Position numbers and translations under genes: made by a program. A model generated the notes under the pieces. The model was given only the letters and a program-made list of their open reading frames with translations. It had not been told where the DNA came from and searched no databases. Shown piece after piece: positions 4,501 through 50,344 of a stretch of 64,000 nucleotides of DNA. Source of the stretch: Enchytraeus crypticus (Eukaryota > Annelida > Clitellata > Enchytraeida > Enchytraeidae). Every line of letters begins with the position of its first letter. Position 1 is the stretch's first letter. Location: contig CAJHZI010000815.1 of the NCBI GenBank assembly GCA_905160935.1, positions 329,751 through 393,750 on the forward strand, written 5' to 3'.

Positions 4501-7500
4501 GGTCTCTCTGTACACAGTCGTCATCGTGTGGTGCTTTGGCGCCTCATTGTGTAGAGTCTGCAAGAGACGTTCCTGACATTGCCTTATGGTGAGGAACCGG
4601 ACTTTAAGTTCTTATTGATTGATTGATTATTGATGGTTTGATTGATTGTAATAGTATTGAATAACCTGCTTCCTATGTTCTTCTTTAGTTGCGAATCACT
4701 TTGTGCAGTCAATGAATTAATTGATATATATTAGTTGCCCATTAGTATCCCGACCCTAGTAAAACTGAGATTAAAGGGAAGATGATGATGATGATGATGA
4801 TATTAGTTACTCATAATGTGCATGTACTGCAGTAAGTGTGTTGAAATTTTAGAATAGCTCATCACATTAAATATCCTAGGACTTTATGATGTGCATGCTA
4901 ACATATTTGTACAATCTGTCATCATGCTAACATATTTGTACAATTCCTGCCTCCGACTAAAATATGTACCTGTATGCTTCAAAATTGCAAAAATTATCAT
5001 GTTAAAGAAACCTGATAAGCCAGCTGAACTAGTAACGTCATATAGACCCATCTCGTTGTTACCTGCAATCTCTAAATTGTTTGAAAAGTTATTGTTGAAA
5101 CGACTCAAACCACTGGTCAACATTCCAGATTTTCAATGTGGGTTCAGAGCCCATCACTCGACAATCGATCAACCAAATCGGTTTGGTTACATCGCGTAAT
5201 CAAAGTAATCGAATGCGCGTTAGAGGAAAAAAATACTGCTCTGCAGTTTTTCTGGATGTCTCCCAGGCGTTTGACAGAGTCTGGCATCAAGGCCTCATTC
5301 ATAAAATGAACAAATTATTACCACAAAACTATTGCCAACTCTTGGAATCGTTTCTATCAAATCGTAAATTCACAGTATCACATGAAGAAGCATATTCTAA
5401 CCTATATGAAATTCAAGCAGGAGTGCCGCAAGGAAGTGTAATTGGTCCTCTACTGTACCTCCTCTATACAGCAGATATTCCAACAACAGAGGGTACGTTT
5501 ATGGGAACTTTTGCAGACGACACTGTAATAATGGTAACTGATGCTTGTCAGTTGAAGGCTGTCAGGAATTTGCAACTTGCTCCCGATGAAGTAAGCAGAT
5601 GGACAAAAGATTGGAAAATCAAACTCAATGAGACAAAATCGGTTCATGTAACATTTGCATTGGGCCATAGGAGCAACAATATTTACACTTACCTCAATGA
5701 CCTACAAGTTCCTCAGGCAGATTCAGCTAAATACCTTGGCCTACACTTGGATGCGAGATTGAACTGGAGATACCATGTCAAACAAAAAGCTGAGCAAATC
5801 CGGCACAAACAGCGAGAAATGTATTGGCTAATTGGACGCTACTCTAAACTCAGCCTGAGCAGTAAAAGGTTGATATATCAATCAATCATCAAGCCAATTT
5901 GGACATATGGTATTCAGCTTTGGGGTTGTACAAAGCAATCAAACCGGGACATTATTCAAAGAACTCAAAATAACTTCCTTAGAATGATTACTAATGCTTA
6001 CCGCTTTGTAACCAATCAGGAGATACATAGCGACCTGAGTATCAAAGGAATCGATGGCGTAATCCGAGAATACTCAGCAAAACATGAGAAACGTCTGCTA
6101 AATCATACTAACGTTGAAGCCATTCAGCTGCTAGATACTACCTGTGAATTGAGACGATTGAAAGAATCAAACCTCAAGAACTCGTTTCCTAGCCACTGGG
6201 GACTGCATATCATGCAAAGACGCTTGGGAGCTGTACGCTGGTTCAGCAAACCCGCACACGACTGGCTTAAACTAATTATGTCCACTTCAAAAATAGTGAT
6301 AAATTAACAAACGTTAAGATTGCCCTAAGCATATCCGATTAAGGATGTTTAAAAAAAAATTCTGTAATTTCTGTAATTTTCGAATTGCTAGAATAATATT
6401 TACTTTAAGCAATTGGATTGCAAAAGGAAGATACCGACTACGGTTTAGTTGTGCAGTGAAAAGTGCATTATAAAAAGCTAACACTAATACCTCGTTTAAC
6501 ATCAGTTTCCTGCTCGATATCGCATCAGTGACAGAAAGATAAAGCGTAATATAACGAATAATCTCGTTTCGTTTTTCTGTAAGATAAAGAAAGATATCTT
6601 ACAGAAAAAATTCTCTTCCAAAATCCTTTGAGAATTGATGTATTTAAGACCATCGTGGAATTTTGCTGACATTTTATATTTCACTTGTATCTCTTCTTTT
6701 CGTTTATGATTCTGCCGTTTTGCTGCTGGAGTAAATATCACTGTTCGCATGGTGTCGTGAGAAGGCTGGCTAAGGTGAGTAGGCTATAAGTCTGCTTACG
6801 CTATGATTACGGAAGCAGCTCTTCCACAGATATATCCCAGCTCTTCCACAGATATATCCCAGCTCTTCCACAGATATATCCCAGCTCTTCCACAGATAAA
6901 TCCCAGCTCTTCCACAGATATATCCCAGCAAAATCTCTTTTTCCAATTTCGCAGTTGCTTCAGTTACGTAATCTTTCATCGAGGGCTTAATGATCTGGAA
7001 GATGACTAGCACAAATTTACCATTCGTTTTTCAGATGCCCTATATATTTCTGTGGATGAGATGATGTAGGACAGAGAGAATTAGACACAGTCTATTTGTA
7101 TCCTGACCCTAGCTAAACTGTGATTCAAGGGAAGATGATGATGATTTGGCCCCTATTTATTTCTATGTTTTGATGTTGTCTTAACCTCAGAGCTTTCAGT
7201 TGCTTTTATGTGCCCACGCTTGCAGTGCGACCACAGAGGTAACCCAGCCTACTTCAACCCACTCGAGCAGATGACTCTAGGTCAGGTCGCTACGTACGTG
7301 GGGATAGTTCAGGTGATCACGTGGGATCAGGTCAGACTACATCCGAGCAACGTCCTCAACGACTGGCATCATCGTGGCTCTCCCATATGGTCCGGAGCTC
7401 TGGTATGTGCCTCTACCTTAGGGCAGGGGATATGGCGTAACTGTTAGAGTGTTCGCCTCGGATACAAGTGGCCTGGGTTCAAAGCTCAGGTCGTGTCACG

Positions 7501-30100: not shown

Positions 30101-32535
30101 ATAATTCGGACATAATAACCCCATATATCATTTTCTGGTGCATATCGGTGTGCCAGAAAAGGTACAATTAAAAGATAATTATCAGCTAAGAAATTGTACA
30201 AACCAAATTAACAAGAACTATACATCAAAACACTAAATTGACAAGAACTATACATCAAAACACTAAATTAACAAGAACTATACATCAAAACACTAAATTA
30301 ACAGAACTATACATCAAAAACACTAAATTAACAGAACTATACATCAAAACACTAAATTAACAGAACTATACATCAAAACACTAAATTAACAAGAACTATA
30401 CAACAAAACACTAAATTAACATGAACTATACATCAAAACACTAAATTAACAAGAACTATACATCAAAACACTAAATTAACAAGAACTATACATCAAAACA
30501 CTAAATTAACAAGAACTGTACATCAAAACACTGAATTAACAAGAACTATACATTAAAACACTAAATTAACAGAACTATACATCAAAACACTAAATTAACA
30601 GAACTATACATCAAAACACTAAATTAACAGAACTATACATCAAAACACTAAATTAACATGAACTATACATCAAAACACTAAATTAACATGAACTATACAT
30701 CAAAACACTAAATTAACATGAACTATACATCAAAACACTAAATTAACAAGAACTATACATCAAAACACTAAATTAACAGAACTATACATCAAAACACTAA
30801 ATTAACAGAACTATACATCAAAACACTAAATTAACAGAACTATACATCAAAACACTAAATTAACAGAACTATACATCAAAACACTAAATTAACAGAACTA
30901 TACATCAAAACACTAAATTAACAAGAACTATACATCAAAACACTGAATTAACAAGAACTATACATCAAAACACTGAATTAACAAGAACTATACATCAAAA
31001 CACTAAATTAACAAGAACTATACATCAAGACACTAAATTAACAGAACTATACATCAAAACACTAAATTAACAGAACGAAACTTACATCTACTCATTAAAT
31101 CTCTGTAACCAAGATGTAGAGTATTAATAGTTGATACACCAGTGTCCAGCAGAGTCGTTGTCAGACTACTGAATTTTCTGCAATCAAAAAACTATAATTT
31201 TAAAACATTAAGCCACAGGATGGGAAATTATCCATTAAACGTAATCATAACTACTATCATAATGCAATATCATAAGGGCACATACAAAAAAATATATAAG
31301 TTAATTTTTAAAATGAGAGTGACTGTTAGTTAAAATCAATGCAAGCTATCACTAATTCACTTGCTTTTGTTAAAGTATAAAACCGACTGCCCTCTCCACT
31401 ACGACTTTGATTTGTCTGCGACGAGGAGTGCGTTCAAGCCGGACTTTAGACATGATGAGCGGCAGATCACCTGCATTGCCACCATGAAACACATGACTCG
31501 AGATTCCGCCAACGCGTCCTTGCTACTGGATGTGCGCTGTGAGTATCTCTCAATCAATCAGGCAGCTAATTAATCAATCAATCAATCAATCAATCAATGA
31601 ACGAATCAATCAATCAATTGTTCACTCGTTTACTCTCCCGCTCACTCGCTCACTCATTCACTTACTCACTCACTCTTTAAATTAATCAATCACTCAATCA
31701 ATCTATCTATCTAGATTTAGTTATGTAATTATTTTTATTTAATTTAGTTACGTAATTATTTAGTTTATTGTTATGTTCACGTACATTGCTTGAAGATTCA
31801 AAATGACGCTACTATGTCGCAGTGGTCTCTTATAACTGCAGATTGTACAACTTTTATATTACAAAAGTACCAGGCAATAAAATATATATATATATATCCT
31901 CTAAAATAGAGACTAAATAGCTAAAATAGAGACTAAATAGTACAAATAGTACAAATAGTACAAATAGTACAAATAGTACAAATAGTACAAATAGTACAAA
32001 TAGTACAAATAGTACAAATAGTACAAATAGTACAATAGTACAAATAGTACAAATAGTACAAATAGTACTCTATCCTCTAATGTTATTTTCTTATTCGATA
32101 AACTGAACATAGTTTTCTTTTCATATCACATACGACTACGTTATCAAGTCATCTAAAATTAAAAGTATCGGACTTGTATCTCTGTTCACCTGCATTTTCC
32201 CTTATATGACATTGTACTTAGTTATTTATATCAACAGATTCTCCTAAAATTTACTGCGAGGGAGTTGTGAGAGGAAAGTCTCTTGTGCCTAAGAACAGCT
32301 CCACTCATAAGATCACGTGTAGAGTTATATCAAATCCTCCCATGATATCGGCTGAGGACGATATGATATCGGCGACGCTCCAGGATCGATCCTGGAGCGT
32401 CGCCTCCTGTGCTCAACCCGCTTCCCCTCTACCACCAAGCAGCGTCGAATATGGAACAAATGAGATGGTTTGTTTTAGAATGATCGTTTTATTTTCGAAT
32501 GATCCTATTTATATATATATTATATATATATAGAT

Positions 32536-43272: not shown

Positions 43273-43523
43273 ATGGCGGATCGCTTAACTCAACTGCAAG
43301 AAGCCGTCAATCAGGTTATTACTTTTTAAAATTGTTTTTGCTCGGAATTACAGTATTAATTGATAGTACGGTATTGTGTGATAAAATGCGACAATTTCTG
43401 CATAAAATTTAGATGTTTTTGCTCTTAGCTTTATAAGTTATTTATGATTTGCACTGCTTCGCTTGTTTGATTAATCCTTTCTAAAAGACTTTCTATTTGA
43501 TATTTTAAAAATATATTAACGAC

Positions 43524-43605
<82 letters not shown>

Positions 43606-46429
43606 AAATTGTAAATAATATAGGTAGAAATTATAAATAATATATATATTATTTTGAGACAAGTGATCATCTAACCATTAACTTTGTAATTCAGTGCAGT
43701 TGGATCTGTAGGAAAGTCCAAAAATTTGATTATTTTAAAGTAAATTATGAAGAAGTTACAAGAAATATACAGCATAGAAATTTATTTATGGTTTTAAGTG
43801 ATAATGATAATAACGATGATGTAGAGGGCTTATGGAATAATATTAACACAGGTCTCAGGATGATTCGAGATGAGTTCATTAAATTAAAGCCAAAAATAGA
43901 GATAGATGCAAGTGAAAAGGTAAGAAGAAAAAGAAAAGCCAAAAAAGATGCTTGGAACAAGTATAAAAATAGCAATAATGAAGAATCATTGTACTATGAA
44001 TGTAAGAAAAAGCTTAATAAATCGGTTGCAGAAAATAGAAAAGCCAAGTTAGAATTTGAAAAACAGCTAGCTCGTAATATAAAGAATGACGCAGAGTTTT
44101 TTTGCCTATGCTAATGCTAACAAAATGACTATTAAAAAGATTGGTCTTTTAAGAGATGAATATAACAACATTATAGAAGAAAATAAAGATAGTGCAAACT
44201 ATTTTAATAAATATTTTTTGTCTGTATTTGTGGAAGAAGATCTAGTTAATATGCCAGTACCGGCTAGGATCTTCAGAGGTAACTTTGAATGCTCCTTACA
44301 TAATATTGAGTGTGATATTGATGATGTTATAAGTAAATTAAATTTGCTAAATTTCAATAAAAGTCAAGGTCCAGATGAGATTCATGGAAAACTGATTTCG
44401 GAGCTAAGAGATGAATTAGCACCAGCTCTATTAAACCTACTAAAAGCTTCAATGAATACAGGGGTGGTTCCTCAAGATTTCAAGAATGCCAATGTTGTAC
44501 CAATACATAAAAAGGGAAATAGGGATAAAGCAGAAAATTATAGGCCTATAAGCTTAAAAAGTATAATCGGTAAGACATTTGAAAGCATTATTAATGATAA
44601 AATAATTAGTTTCTTGGAAGAATATAACTTAATTAGAAATAGTCAGCATGGTTTTATTAGTGGACATTCTTGTTTAACTAATTTGCTAGATTTTTTAGAA
44701 TATATTACAAAGAAAGTAGATAATAAAAATAGCATTGATATCTTATATCTAGACTTTGCTAAAGCACTTGATAAAGTTCCACATAAAAGATAACTTAGTA
44801 AGTTGGAAGCACATGGAATAATGGGCAAACTTTTAAAGTGGATAGAAAATTGGTTAAGCAATAGAAAACAAAGGGTGTGTGTCGAGGACGAGTTCTCGGA
44901 ATGGGCAGCAGTGAAGAGTGGTGTGCCACAGGGCTCTGTTTTAGGACCTCTATTATTTTTAGTTTACATCAATGACATTGACATAGATATTGTATATAAA
45001 TTTAGTAAATTTGCAGATGATTCTAAAGTAGCAAAGATAGTAAACAAAATTGAAGATGCTGAGATTTTAAAGTATGATATAAAAATGGTACAGGACTGGT
45101 CTAGGGATTGGCTTAATGGAGTTCAATGCTGAGAAATGTAGAGTTATGCATATAGGGAATAATAATTTAGAAATTGAGTATATATTGAACAATATTAAAC
45201 TAAAATCCACAAACAGTGAGAGGGATTTAGGAGTCTTTGTGGATAGCTCTTTTAAATTTAGTGAAATTGCAATAAAGTTGTAAATAGTGCTAATTGTGTA
45301 TTAGGAATGATTAAAAGAACAATTGCATGTAGAAATAAAGATATTGTGGTAAGGCTATATAAGGCTCTTGTACGGCCCAAACTTGAATACTGCATTCAGG
45401 CTTTGTGCCCATATCTAAAGAAAGATATCGATAAATTAGAAAGGGTACAAGCCAGAGCAACAAGGCTGGTATTTGACTGTCAAAAGCTTAGTTATGAGAA
45501 TAGATTAAAATTCGTAGGATTAACCTCTTTAAGTGAGAGAAGAACTAGAGGAGATTTAATAGAAGTTTTTAAGATACTCAAAGGCTTCAGCAAAGTTAAC
45601 CATAGTATTTGGTTTAATTTAGCAAACAACAGAAACACAAGGGAACATATTTATAAACTTAGTAAATTTAGAAGTAGACTAGATTTAAGGAAATCTTTCT
45701 TTAGTCAAAGAGTTATAAATGCTTGGAATAGTTTGCCAAGCGAAGTTGTGGAAGCAGAATCAGTGAATGCTTTTAAAAATAAATATGATAAACATAAGAA
45801 CATGTAAATTAGATGCTAATTGCATGTTCAGTCTTATACATAGGCTACGTATAAATATCACTTGTTGACATGAAGTCTGTATGATTTAATTTATATTAAT
45901 TGGTTTTAGTTAAGAGCCTGATGAGTCTTAAACAAGCATATAATTGCTTCCTGACTCTGTAGTGTTATGTTTATGTTATATATAATAATAATAATAATAA
46001 TAAAGGTTTAACGTCCGTTTCCTCATCCAGGGATGATGTCAGGGACGTCCCCAACAGCACACATCACTACAGATCAATTCATCCAGACCAATCTGTGAAA
46101 GAAATGTGCTGAGGAGAAGTAAGGTCCTAAACGAAAGCCAGTCCAGTGATCAAAAAATGGTCAAGGTAGATTGATTATGTGTATGGTGGGAAAAGGTAAG
46201 TTTTAAGCATGCTAGAGAATGTTGAAAGAGAACAACAAGAGCGAAGATTAGCAGGTAAAGAGTTCCAGATTGTGAGTGCAGCGTAAGAAAATGAACGTCT
46301 GCCCAATGACGTGAGAACATTTGGAACTGAGAGAAGATTGGCATCGGTGGAGCGAAGTGTACGTGAGGGAAGATAGGGAAGAAGAATTTCAGATAAGTAA
46401 GAAGGCTTGCCATTTATATATATATATAT

Positions 46430-46496
<67 letters not shown>

Positions 46497-49400
46497 TAAA
46501 TTTATAAAATAAACATTCTATTCAATTTTTTCCCTCTCTAGTGTTCTGCTATGTGTCAGATCCATTTTACATATTCATACTCTCGAGTTGGCTTTCGCAT
46601 TCCCTATAGAGCACTTCATAGATTGATAAGTTAATCCCTTCGCAAGGCTATGCCTTCCGATACCTTATGTAGCCCATAGATTTAAGCTTAACAACACTTA
46701 TTTTGTGTATGAAACGACTTCCATTTAATCTCAATAACTTCTTATTATTACCAATAATAAATTATTTATTAACTATTAAATTGTGTTTTATACAAAACTA
46801 TCTCTCTCTCTCTTAGTGCACTGCCTACTGGCAGGTCCATGGTATATAACGCCTCCACTCTTCTCTGTCTTCCGCCTTCCTCTTTATTTCCACATATGAG
46901 TGGGTCTTTAATTCATCTAACATACCTAATCTCGGCCTGCCCCTGCCTCTTTTTCCTTCCTTTCTACTTTCTATGACCTCTATTAATAGACCTTCCTCCC
47001 TTAGAATGTGTCCTATCCTACTCTTCTTCCTATTTCTTAATACATTTATCAACTGTCTATCTGTGCCAACTCTCACCAGAACTTCCAAAAACTATATTGA
47101 ATGCTTATCAATTACAAAATCTGACTAAAACATTGTATTGTTGCAGCTGGCAGATCATTTCTGTAATTCTGTTGGAATCATCCAGCAGGTGGCTCCATCT
47201 GGGCAGTTCGTTGGTTTTGAGAAATCACCTCAGAAGCAGCCAGCTGTCACAAATGAAGGTAGATAGAAATACTGCTACTATGGATTGATGTGGATAAATG
47301 TAATTTAATGCATTTAATGCATAAATTGTTTTTAGCTTAAATTCCTGTTCGAACCTTTCAGTTTGTGGAATTATTATCTGACTAACAGGCAGGTTGTTGA
47401 GAACAGAATTTGCTTAAATGGAGCGACGAACACTCAGTTTCTGGTTCGTTGATTGAATAAAATTTATTGGTGTCGGATTGTGGCCAGCTTATTGATTTCT
47501 TCCCAACTGATTGATTGCTTTAGCTAAAACACTGATTGAGGATGGCCAAACGGATAACTTGCTTGCCTGAAAAGCAAGAAGCCATCGGTTCAAATCCCAG
47601 GCTTTCTGTCTCTGACAGTATCCCTTTTGATATAGAAACAGACGTTTAACTTAGCTTTGCAGCTTTTGCATCATCCACTTGAGTAATTTTGTCAGAATAT
47701 GCCACTCTGTTTACTTGCTTATTTCAGCTCTAGTCTTCTAGTTCTATTTGAAAGATTAATTCAGATTGCATGCTTCTCTTACATTGTTTCTGATCACACT
47801 CATCTGCTGATTTATTGTTTCAAACACCTATTTATTAGATTAATTATGTCAGACATTGTTTGATTCTTTTCAAATCCCATCTGTTGATTGATTTTGTAGA
47901 TCAAGTCAATCTATTTGATTGATTGTTTCAGATCGGTCTCATTGTTTGATTGATTGTTTCAGATCTTACCCATCTGTTTGATTGATTGTTTCGAAGCACA
48001 CCCATCTGCTGATTGATTGTTTCGGGTCATGCCCAAATGTTTGATTGATTACTTCAGATTATGCACATCTGTTTGATTGATTGTTTCAGATCACGCCCAG
48101 CTATTTGATTGATTGTTTAAGATCATGCCCAGCTATTTGATTGAATGTTTCAGATCACGCCCAGCTATTTGATTGATTGTTTCAGATCACGCCCAGCAAT
48201 TTGATTGATTGTTTCAGATCACGCCCAGCTATTTGATTGATTGTTTCAGATCATGCCCAAATGTTTGATTGATTGTTTCAGATCACGCCCAACTATTTGC
48301 TCAACAGATTGCTCGCACTGCGAAAGATATTGATGTACTGATTGACTCTCTACCCAGCGAAGATTCTTCATCTGAATTACAGGTGTTTGAGTAATCTTCT
48401 ATCTCCTTTGATTATAAGACTGTATTGTTTAGTTTTTTATTCTTATAATACTAATTTTAATAAGAAAGGTTTAACATCTGTTTTGTAAGGATGATGTCAT
48501 GGACATCAAGCCATGTGATAACTAAGTTATCACTCACATCCCAGTAACATTATAGGATAACTAAGGGTACTTACAAAAGCAAGGTAGAGTAGGTCAATGA
48601 CTTGTTTCTAATATTGCCAAATAACTTATATTATGAATTTTACTGCTGTTGATTTTGTCAAACAAAAAGTTTAAAAGGAATTAATTACTTTATTTAATTA
48701 ATTATTTGATTTAATTTAATTAAATAAAAATTTAATTTAGTTACAGAATTAACCATTTTATTAATTAAACTTAGCAAAATATCTTTGTATTTTTGTGTTG
48801 TATATATTTATCCCCGTGTTGTGTCCGGGTTGTTTGAAGAATTGACCAACCGGAGACTGCACGTGTCGTAGAAGGCGACTAAAGCACTATGATCCATACC
48901 AACGTCAGAAAGGGCATTCGGTTGGTGAGCGCCTAGGCTCCAGAAATTGCTACAAATAGATAAACGAATGGAAAAGTCTCAAATAGGAGATTTGTTGGTG
49001 GTGTGGTGTAGGACAGAGAGGATTTGAGACAGTCCGTTTGTATCCCGACCCTGGTTAAACTGGGATTCAAGGGAGGATGATGATGATGATGTGTTGTATA
49101 TATTTCTTTTGTTATATGACTGATCACACCCATCTATGTAAAATATTTTCTCTCAAGAATTAAGCAGCTATTTAGTCTGACCCGAAAACCTCTCTAATTC
49201 GTCTTCAACACGTATGAAATGCTCTTTCTCGAGTCGTCTGTAATATAAAAATATTCCAATCCCACACTTCTTCTCTTCTTAAGAAATTGCACTGGCTTCC
49301 AGTCTCTGAACGAATAAAATTCAAGATAGGCTTTCAAAGGTTTAAATGATGGTAGACCATCCTGTGTATCTGATCTTTTATCAATCTATCAACCCTCTCA

Positions 49401-50344
49401 TTGTCTGCGCTCCTCTAGTAAAAACCTTACTGTGCCATGCATTAAATCTGCTATGAGCATACGCTCCTATATGTTTTCTGCTCCGACATTATGGAACTCC
49501 TCGCCACAAGATCAAAGATCTTGTAATTGTATTGGTACTTTCCTGTGCAAGCAAAAAACCCATCGATTTCACCATAGGTCTAAATTTAGCCCCTCTTGCC
49601 TGGCATCTTGGTCTTACACCATTTTTATCTCGCTTTCTCTTGTGGTCTTTCCATACTCAGTCGTCATCGTGTGATGTTTTGGCCCCTTTGGGGCCTGTTT
49701 GTGTGGAGTCTGCAAGAGGCTTCCCTGATATTGCCTTATGGCAAGAGCCGGACTTTATATTCTTATTGATTGATGGCTCTCTAAGTTTTTTCAAACAATA
49801 TCTAAAATTTGACTATTAATATTTTTTAACAGTCTTTCTGCTTCTTCATTTATCACAATTCATTGTTTCATTGATTTTTGTGTGATGCTGAATTTGTATT
49901 GTTTATGGGAATTGCGCAACCTTGTCAAACTCGTATTGGTGTTTAAAAAATTTCGTTGAGGACTTCAATGTTGAAATGATTAAGATAATTTTTCAGATGA
50001 TCAATTTCTCTTATTAAATTTATTACCATAGTTATTCTAATTTATCCCGACCTGAAGATAAACTGGAATTCAATGGGAGATGATGATGAGTTATCCAGTT
50101 TATATATAATTGATTGATCGTTCAATGAATTAATTGATTGATTAATGATTGATTGGTTGAGCAGATAGCTAGTTTGAAGAAGTTAGAAATAGAGAATCAG
50201 GAGGCGGCTGAAGCCCTGGAAGCAGTTGTTAGACGAGGGGAGCTGATGCTAGAGAGAGTTCAACAAGCTCTGCATGATATTGCTCAAGCTCTGCTGGAGG
50301 ACCAGCCCCCTCCATCCATCTCTATACCTTCAAGTTCAACATGA
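43273..50344 (+). CDS. MED21: Mediator of RNA polymerase II transcription subunit 21, four exons
   Basis: Seen: exons 43273-43314, 47147-47258, 48282-48382 and 50165-50344 join in phase (0,1,0) into 144 codons plus TGA. The protein starts [14 protein letters not shown] and contains [14 protein letters not shown] and [17 protein letters not shown]. The C-terminal half is an acidic, leucine-rich coiled coil (about residues 86-132) ending in a Pro/Ser tail. Known: these are hallmark segments of MED21 (yeast Srb7), and animal MED21 is about 144 residues long, so the model looks complete. MED21 pairs with MED7 as a long coiled coil at the hinge of the Mediator middle module, in the nucleus, linking regulators to RNA polymerase II. 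Intron 1 holds a CR1-like LINE; intron 2 is largely an array of 3'-splice-site copies. No unusual base use is seen. The start is the first ATG of the conserved N-terminus. Confidence 0.95.
43690..45830 (+). pseudogene. CR1-like LINE reverse transcriptase in MED21 intron 1
   Basis: 43788-44114 is a Lys-rich linker ([13 protein letters not shown]) that shifts frame in a T-run at about 44096-44103. 44086-44793 carries [63 protein letters not shown] and [15 protein letters not shown], then one TAA. 44803-45132 continues in the same frame with [20 protein letters not shown] and the catalytic FADDS. Two further shifts (about 45118 and 45280) lead to the last frame, 45307-45807 ([23 protein letters not shown]). 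The HGF-x-SCLTNLL pattern is typical of CR1-group elements. 5'-truncated; few disabling changes, so relatively young. Confidence 0.88.
45985..46410 (-). pseudogene. LINE family D, 3' end
   Basis: The - strand reads [14 protein letters not shown] and [12 protein letters not shown], a typical LINE C-terminus, followed by the 3' motif (on + GTTTAACGTCCGTTTCCTCA, TCAGGGACGTCCCC) and an (ATT)n tail at 45985-46002. In MED21 intron 1. Confidence 0.7.
46800..47089 (-). pseudogene. RTE-like LINE, C-terminus and 3' end
   Basis: The - strand frame 47088-46825 reads [36 protein letters not shown] and REEWRRY before a stop, then the 3' UTR and (GA)n tail (CT tract at 46801-46813 on +). It ends 57 bases before MED21 exon 2. 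Confidence 0.85.
47540..47665 (+). mobile_element. tRNA-derived SINE, divergent head, shared tail
   Basis: A cloverleaf-like head (GGCCAAACGGATAACTTGCT, CATCGGTTCAAATCCC) with a B box, then a tail GAAACAGACGTTTAACTTAG. In MED21 intron 2. Confidence 0.65.
47920..48299 (+). repeat. 32-bp minisatellite that copies the MED21 exon 3 splice acceptor
   Basis: The unit ATCACGCCCAGCTATTTGAT plus TGATTGTTTCAG repeats about ten times with growing divergence upstream. The last unit is the real exon 3 acceptor and the first codons of exon 3 (48282 on). Most units carry CAG directly before ATCACGCCC. Confidence 0.92.
48465..48510 (-). mobile_element. LINE family D 3' end scrap
   Basis: AAAGGTTTAACATCTGTTTT and GGATGATGTCATGGACATC, diverged. 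In MED21 intron 3. Confidence 0.4.
48810..49094 (+). mobile_element. Short dispersed element, family B, full copy
   Basis: Starts CCCCGTGTTGTGTCCGGGTT, ends GGGAGGATGATGATGATGAT. Closely matches 131-421. In MED21 intron 3. Confidence 0.75.
49170..49790 (+). pseudogene. L2-like LINE, 3' part
   Basis: Similar to 3835-4640: the frame pieces read [15 protein letters not shown]-like text (about 49285) and [11 protein letters not shown] (49486-49518), then 3' UTR GCCTTATGGCAAGAGCCGGA and a GATT tail. Frames are broken. In MED21 intron 3. Confidence 0.7.

Follow-up and report, generated by a model that had tools for sequence, protein, structure and literature searches.

How an intron whose 3' end is occupied by copies of its own splice acceptor might still be spliced correctly at the intact exon is the question raised by MED21 in this annelid, where an earlier note had described a minisatellite in intron 2 made of the exon 3 acceptor and the first coding bases of that exon. 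Acceptor choice among near-identical neighbours is an old question and has been studied with artificial duplications. The window, which is the whole 64,000-nucleotide stretch of DNA that was analysed, is the end of contig C714 (329751-393750) in an assembly of 524 Mb and 802 contigs. In the mitochondrial contig, where TGA encodes tryptophan, the genes nad3-nad2-cox1-cox2-atp8-cox3 share one strand (cox1 was identified by Pfam and the rest from open reading frames), and we take this order to be the annelid pattern.

MED21 is complete on the + strand of the window, where exon joining and translation gave four exons with GT-AG joins and a product of 144 aa (Table 1). This product matches chain 7emf_U, presumably the human MED21 chain, with E 7e-44 over residues 1-133, and it matches Pfam PF11221 (Med21) with 95 bits at a cut-off of 37.3. 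Exon 3 starts at 48282 with DHAQLFA, which is aligned with EYAQLFA of 7emf_U. A search for a MED21 relative in genome_contigs gave 240 pattern matches, with 0 confirmed, and Rfam over the window gave zero matches at gathering scores.

In this gene, the 3' end of intron 2 is a 32-bp array that TRF places at 47876-48299 with 13.4 copies and a score of 491, and that wrap-around alignment resolves, from left to right, into a partial unit, 12 complete units of 31-32 bases before exon 3, and an 18-base exon-homologous half unit at 48282-48299. Tandem copies thus span the intron-exon boundary and include exon bases. In a typical unit, a branch-like TTGATTGATTG and a TTTCAG acceptor are combined with a duplicate of the 18 bases that open exon 3; a core unit reads ATCACGCCCAGCTATTTG, which equals those 18 bases with one silent change, followed by ATTGATTGTTTCAG. 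The minisatellite of the earlier note is therefore confirmed by both TRF and the unit alignment, with its copy number raised from "about ten" to about 13.

Table 1. Features of the MED21 locus and of its inverted partial copy (positions are those of the window unless a contig is named).
Feature	Position	Strand	Basis
MED21 exon 1, coding part, 14 aa	43273..43314	+	
MED21 exon 2	47147..47258	+	
Older degenerate 32-bp units preceding the TRF-reported array	47792..47875	+	glocal scores 42, 26
Acceptor minisatellite, partial + 12 complete units (exon-start copy + TTTGATTGATTGTTTCAG)	47876..48281	+	TRF, alignment
Homogeneous core, five units, 0-2 mismatches to consensus	48090..48249	+	
Last unit, divergent subtype; its CAG is the true acceptor	48250..48281	+	
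MED21 exon 3; copied stretch 48282-48299	48282..48382	+	
TTGA-type microsatellite directly before the exon 4 acceptor	50108..50160	+	
MED21 exon 4 up to the stop codon	50165..50344	+	
Array of the inverted MED21 copy	C714:225317-225851 (L002, L009)	inverted	

It had also been proposed that divergence grows upstream, as if the array had expanded from the exon border. The six distal complete units have 4-7 mismatches to the consensus, but with 4 mismatches the unit adjoining the exon looks like a distal one, so that the pattern is a homogenised core with diverged edges and no plain gradient. Derivation of the unit from the exon, and not the reverse, is well founded, since DHAQLFA falls in a part of MED21 that is conserved; a simple outward gradient is not, as the homogeneous part is internal. 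Further to the left, fainter copies ending at 47823, 47852 and 47727 score 42, 26 and 26 in glocal alignment to a distal-type unit, where the 95% level of 60 simple shuffles is 16, and another at 47873 no more than equals this level. A dispersed repeat family was considered and rejected, as a search of the own genome, which skips very common words and so gives a lower bound, found a single genuine further copy, in the partial MED21 duplicate described below, and other loci that match mainly via TTGATTGATTG. In viral_contigs there was no exact match to a 27-base unit pattern.

When the 18 AGs of the array (47900-48282) were tried as acceptors, 17 ran into a stop in 17 codons or fewer, and 48282 alone stayed in frame and read on into MED21, which upholds the earlier view that the exon-adjoining unit alone has an intact continuation and that the upstream copies would be frame-breaking decoys. 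Ten of the 17 stop-leading AGs are found at a unit boundary, and two complete units have no boundary AG (CGA, CGG). Decoys 47963 and 48090 share the 20 intron bases that precede the true site, and these bases therefore cannot discriminate the sites. In a comparison of 16 arrays with the acceptor placed, the AG was absent from 3 of the 11 MED21 copies tested and retained in 69 of 77 upstream copies overall, so that splice signals lie within the copies here and elsewhere and show no sign of being purged. The spacings of these copies are evenly spread over the three reading phases (29/22/26 of 77), and with no bias toward multiples of three, in-frame insertion is not favoured. To judge from these counts, the decoys appear neither purged nor adjusted to in-frame insertion, which fits copies that are ignored by splicing.

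Selection for retention of the decoy AG was considered as a further claim and dropped. A first count gave mismatches of 15/158 at the AG vs 206/1738 elsewhere (p 0.44; 79 copies, 20 sites), and a revised count, in which three acceptors were moved, four sites (L049 7022, L052 1417, L011 520 and L011 3742) were dropped and the copy threshold was loosened, gave 9/154 vs 218/1694 (p 0.01; 77 copies, 16 arrays), with fewer changes at the AG than elsewhere. The copies of one array are non-independent and the exon half is truncated in some copies, so that no more than the absence of purging is claimed.

A second version of the array is found 152 kb off on the same contig, in a 2.3-kb inverted copy of MED21 exons 2-3. 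Its introns differ from those of the window locus by 1.0-1.4%, and its array by 0.7% and by an additional 28-bp unit, with a unit order common to both copies. Exon 3 of the inverted copy has an 18-base deletion and a stop, and the whole looks like a non-functional fragment that retained the array. Within this one assembly, a length change of one 28-bp unit set against 1.0-1.4% of intron divergence means that the array is not visibly hypermutable.

The explanation that we favour, at a probability of roughly three in four, is that the array is a minisatellite of the type called mirages in amphioxus, formed by tandem duplication across the acceptor and tolerated, with the exon-adjacent copy still giving correct mRNA. 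In this reading, a tandem duplication across the boundary of intron 2 and exon 3 would have copied the branch region and the acceptor together with the first 18 coding bases; slippage at the level of the unit, or unequal exchange, would then have enlarged the array to ~13 copies, with TTGA repeats possibly acting as seeds of slippage. The array would persist where functional mRNA comes solely from the copy beside the intact exon and the spliceosome reaches that copy often enough, the other copies being mostly ignored or giving early-stop transcripts that would be discarded. Splicing at MED21 exon 3 is presumed to be correct.

The earlier note had implied a special tie between the array and an essential Mediator gene, a tie that finds no support, as the same structure is present at chaperonin, SLC6 and other acceptors. 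One SLC6 exon, on contig C125, was found via similarity matches and carries a 37-bp array of 13.1 copies, which the 24-base test described below misses because only ~6 exon bases are copied. At an unassigned gene, whose peptide was read as BRCT-like and has no Pfam match, an array at 59-79-base spacing copies ~38 exon bases, and in CCT genes the units, whose likeness is convincing on inspection, are 83 bp with ~54 exon bases (L055), 109 bp with ~75 (L049) and 46 bp (L052). Among five SLC6 paralogues (SLC6 identity being given by Pfam), the exon at profile position 205 is preceded by a 33-bp array (10 copies) in one and a 28-bp array (8 copies) in another, and the remaining three have the same exon start and no boundary array; in L046, one of them, an unrelated 16-bp repeat lies in the intron directly upstream. 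As these paralogues differ in arrays at one acceptor, arrays are gained and lost, and the original site is the copy next to the exon. An origin as introners (transposon-derived introns), for which introns of unrelated genes would share near-identical sequence, was rejected on a comparison by eye of the array units, since every gene repeats a boundary of its own and the units are unlike from gene to gene.

Several further arrays were observed. The 33-bp SLC6 array (L045 ~5128-5493; L029 367-732) has a unit that is a multiple of three and is open in frame with the exon, so that splicing to a decoy would merely make the protein longer. A 34-bp acceptor-like array of 25.8 copies, ending near 4130 of L010 (contig C111, reverse strand), precedes an SNX-like exon with a PX domain, which we take to be sorting-nexin-like; it was excluded as a boundary array, as the acceptor-like motif is repeated and the exon start is uncopied. 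The window itself holds a 22-bp array at 6816-6929 (5.2 copies), whose unit contains an acceptor-like CTCTTCCACAG and which has no known exon among the surrounding open reading frames, and a 30-bp array at 30205-31076 (29.5 copies, 96% match by TRF).

Acceptor arrays are recurrent in this genome, and their frequency was assessed in exons of nine TCP1/CCT loci, taken from a Pfam search in three batches and unselected for arrays. The sample comprised 49 of 57 matches; those left out were on C373, C259 (two) and C400 (two), which looked like single long frames, and on C372 (two) and C774 (one), which were outside the analysed stretches. A boundary was counted when the 24 bases round the best AG recurred, with no more than 4 mismatches, in the 600 bases upstream, donors being treated as the mirror image; the best AG (GT) was taken within -20/+25 (-25/+20) of the profile edge, so that some flagged AGs lie inside the exon. 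By this test, boundary copies were found at 13/49 acceptors vs 3/49 donors (Fisher p 0.012) and vs 48/540 random intron windows of the same loci (p 0.0006), p values that serve as guides, as exons of one gene are non-independent. The cases are uneven, with 12/29, 1/13 and 0/7 in the three batches, and with 12/29 exons in the first four loci and 1/20 in the next five. A looser count (at most 6 mismatches) gave 17/68 acceptors, 6/68 donors and 8/49 intron AGs near -300, and for exon middles 0/57 upstream and 1/65 downstream. SLC6, where exon starts were placed by hand, showed no acceptor excess in the boundary test (3/36 acceptors, 3/36 donors, 38/300 intron windows), in TRF arrays near the exon matches (6/34 acceptors vs 7/34 donors) or in zones that took in 45 intron bases on each side (2/30 acceptors vs 6/30 donors).

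A second feature of these acceptors is a tract of TTGA repeats, which was found in the sense orientation within 100 bases upstream of 30/81 acceptors and downstream of 1/81 donors, in a set made up of L045-L055, L011 and window 43273-50344, to which L057 and L058 were added for the CCT count. Every other tetranucleotide class was found at 4 acceptors or fewer in the 81-exon set, and antisense tracts at 2/68 of the first acceptors and 0/13 of the next. TCAA, the reverse complement, lies downstream of 8/81 donors, all in the first 68 exons and seven of the eight in SLC6 (L045-L048; also L049), so that some introns have complementary ends; pairing of TCAA and TTGA within one intron was non-significant (6/9 vs 23/58, p 0.16). 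In MED21, no boundary array was found at the exon 4 acceptor, which has such a tract (Table 1). The TTGA tract may seed slippage, serve as an array of branch sites, or do both.

These observations allow a wider reading, which we put forward tentatively and would not yet bet on, in which tandem duplication in this genome occurs by preference at the 3' splice site. Strand-specific TTGA microsatellites, as strings of branch-site motifs, would multiply and seed acceptor copies, and the spliceosome would follow a rule (the last AG, or the AG joined to the intact exon) by which near-identical upstream acceptors are ignored.

An alternative that we regard as unlikely is that the repeated TTGATTGATTG was retained by selection, several branch-like TTGAT motifs and AG-free sequence strengthening a 3' splice site whose polypyrimidine tract is poor, and the copied acceptors being by-products. 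TTGAT resembles the branch-site consensus, and the TTGA tract itself is free of AG. TTGA is the sole tetranucleotide class found strongly at acceptors, as described above, and in the CCT sample it precedes 15/49 acceptors in sense and 0/49 in antisense, vs 60/540 random intron windows in sense; the sense bias is nevertheless intron-wide, with only 2 of the same 540 windows in antisense, and a mutational bias would suffice as well. The acceptor tracts are C-poor, with ~10% C at most positions and T mostly at 35-55% (figures that stand without a comparison genome), and between -45 and -8 of 79 acceptors both CTGAT (16 vs 4.6 expected) and TTGAT (33 vs 15.3 expected) are enriched. At the 51 acceptors that have no TTGA tract, however, CTGAT occurs only 7 times vs 3.0 expected and TTGAT is outside the top words, and many boundary arrays have no TTGA. 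The intron half of the MED21 array is better preserved than the exon half (7/168 vs 36/214 mismatches), a contrast that becomes non-significant without CpG and subtype columns (p 0.24).

It is quite improbable that the array serves as a regulator through poison acceptors, in which partial use of the decoys would adjust the amount of MED21 by exposing its transcripts to nonsense-mediated decay. The ten boundary decoys with AG, the two that match the intron bases of the true site and the early stops described above are what such a switch would use, and the stops would be followed by a further exon junction, a requirement of decay. Nevertheless, similar arrays occur at unrelated genes, for which a general process fits better than a MED21 switch, the non-functional partial copy has the same array, and the AG is gone from some of the MED21 copies. 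An assembly artefact is scarcely credible, as, although tandem repeats are prone to misassembly, the unit differences are ordered, the near-copy keeps the unit order and such arrays are found on several contigs.

Conserved genes of this genome offer natural arrays that number 2 to 12 copies when the true site is counted, with array-less paralogues as controls. They further suggest that mirages originate in animals that are only distantly related, that in some genes they can be common, and that a simple repeat can show a strong preference for a single end and strand of introns. If the reading of the 3' splice site as a preferred place of duplication were true, the genome would amount to a set of natural duplicated-acceptor experiments, and its arrays would be raw material for shifts of exon starts and for intron gain.

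A simple repeat with a strand-specific place at intron ends is reportedly known from fish, where Lin et al. (in Genome Res.) are said to have described complementary (AC)m/(GT)n repeats at both ends of introns. The TTGA tracts are like these in their placement, and unlike them in that the 3' TTGA is common here and the 5' complement is rare outside SLC6, their joint presence being non-significant. In Caenorhabditis elegans, the passages cited link CeRep25B and similar intronic minisatellites to alternative splicing (PMC4039745); these too are intronic minisatellites near splice decisions, but CeRep25B is described there as a clustered repeat family, unlike the MED21 array with its own acceptor and exon start. 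Among the matches listed, in a partial coverage of the literature, there was no report of boundary minisatellites in an annelid, and the nearest case is earthworm metallothionein, with minisatellites in its introns and silent copies of exon 4 that are absent from the final transcript (PMC12783039). It is likewise an annelid gene with intronic minisatellites, and the cited passages describe no arrays across a splice acceptor.

The closest likeness is to the mirages of amphioxus, which are described in the passages cited for Adh3, the globins BflGb6 and BflGb9, PGBD5, troponin C and others, with unit lengths of 10-72 bp (Adh3) and 150-160 bp (globins), with length variation, and as not disturbing splicing (PMC3087553, PMC3902484). 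As in those passages, the arrays described here repeat a boundary in tandem in the manner of a minisatellite, and many of the copies hold AG/GT signals. The name was coined for cephalochordates and marks a lineage, not a mechanism; an amphioxus source for this DNA, which the likeness would suggest, was set aside on the mitochondrial gene order. Amphioxus has mirages at donors as well, and the CCT sample gave 13 acceptor and 3 donor cases. As far as the same passages go, the annelid arrays differ in that the TTGA tract is often within the unit, and in that mirages were described gene by gene in amphioxus whereas acceptor arrays recur here across a sample of conserved genes. The MED21 array is thus a known kind of structure, the mirage, in an apparently new lineage, the annelids, where it is recurrent at several genes and is accompanied by a striking TTGA signature at acceptors.
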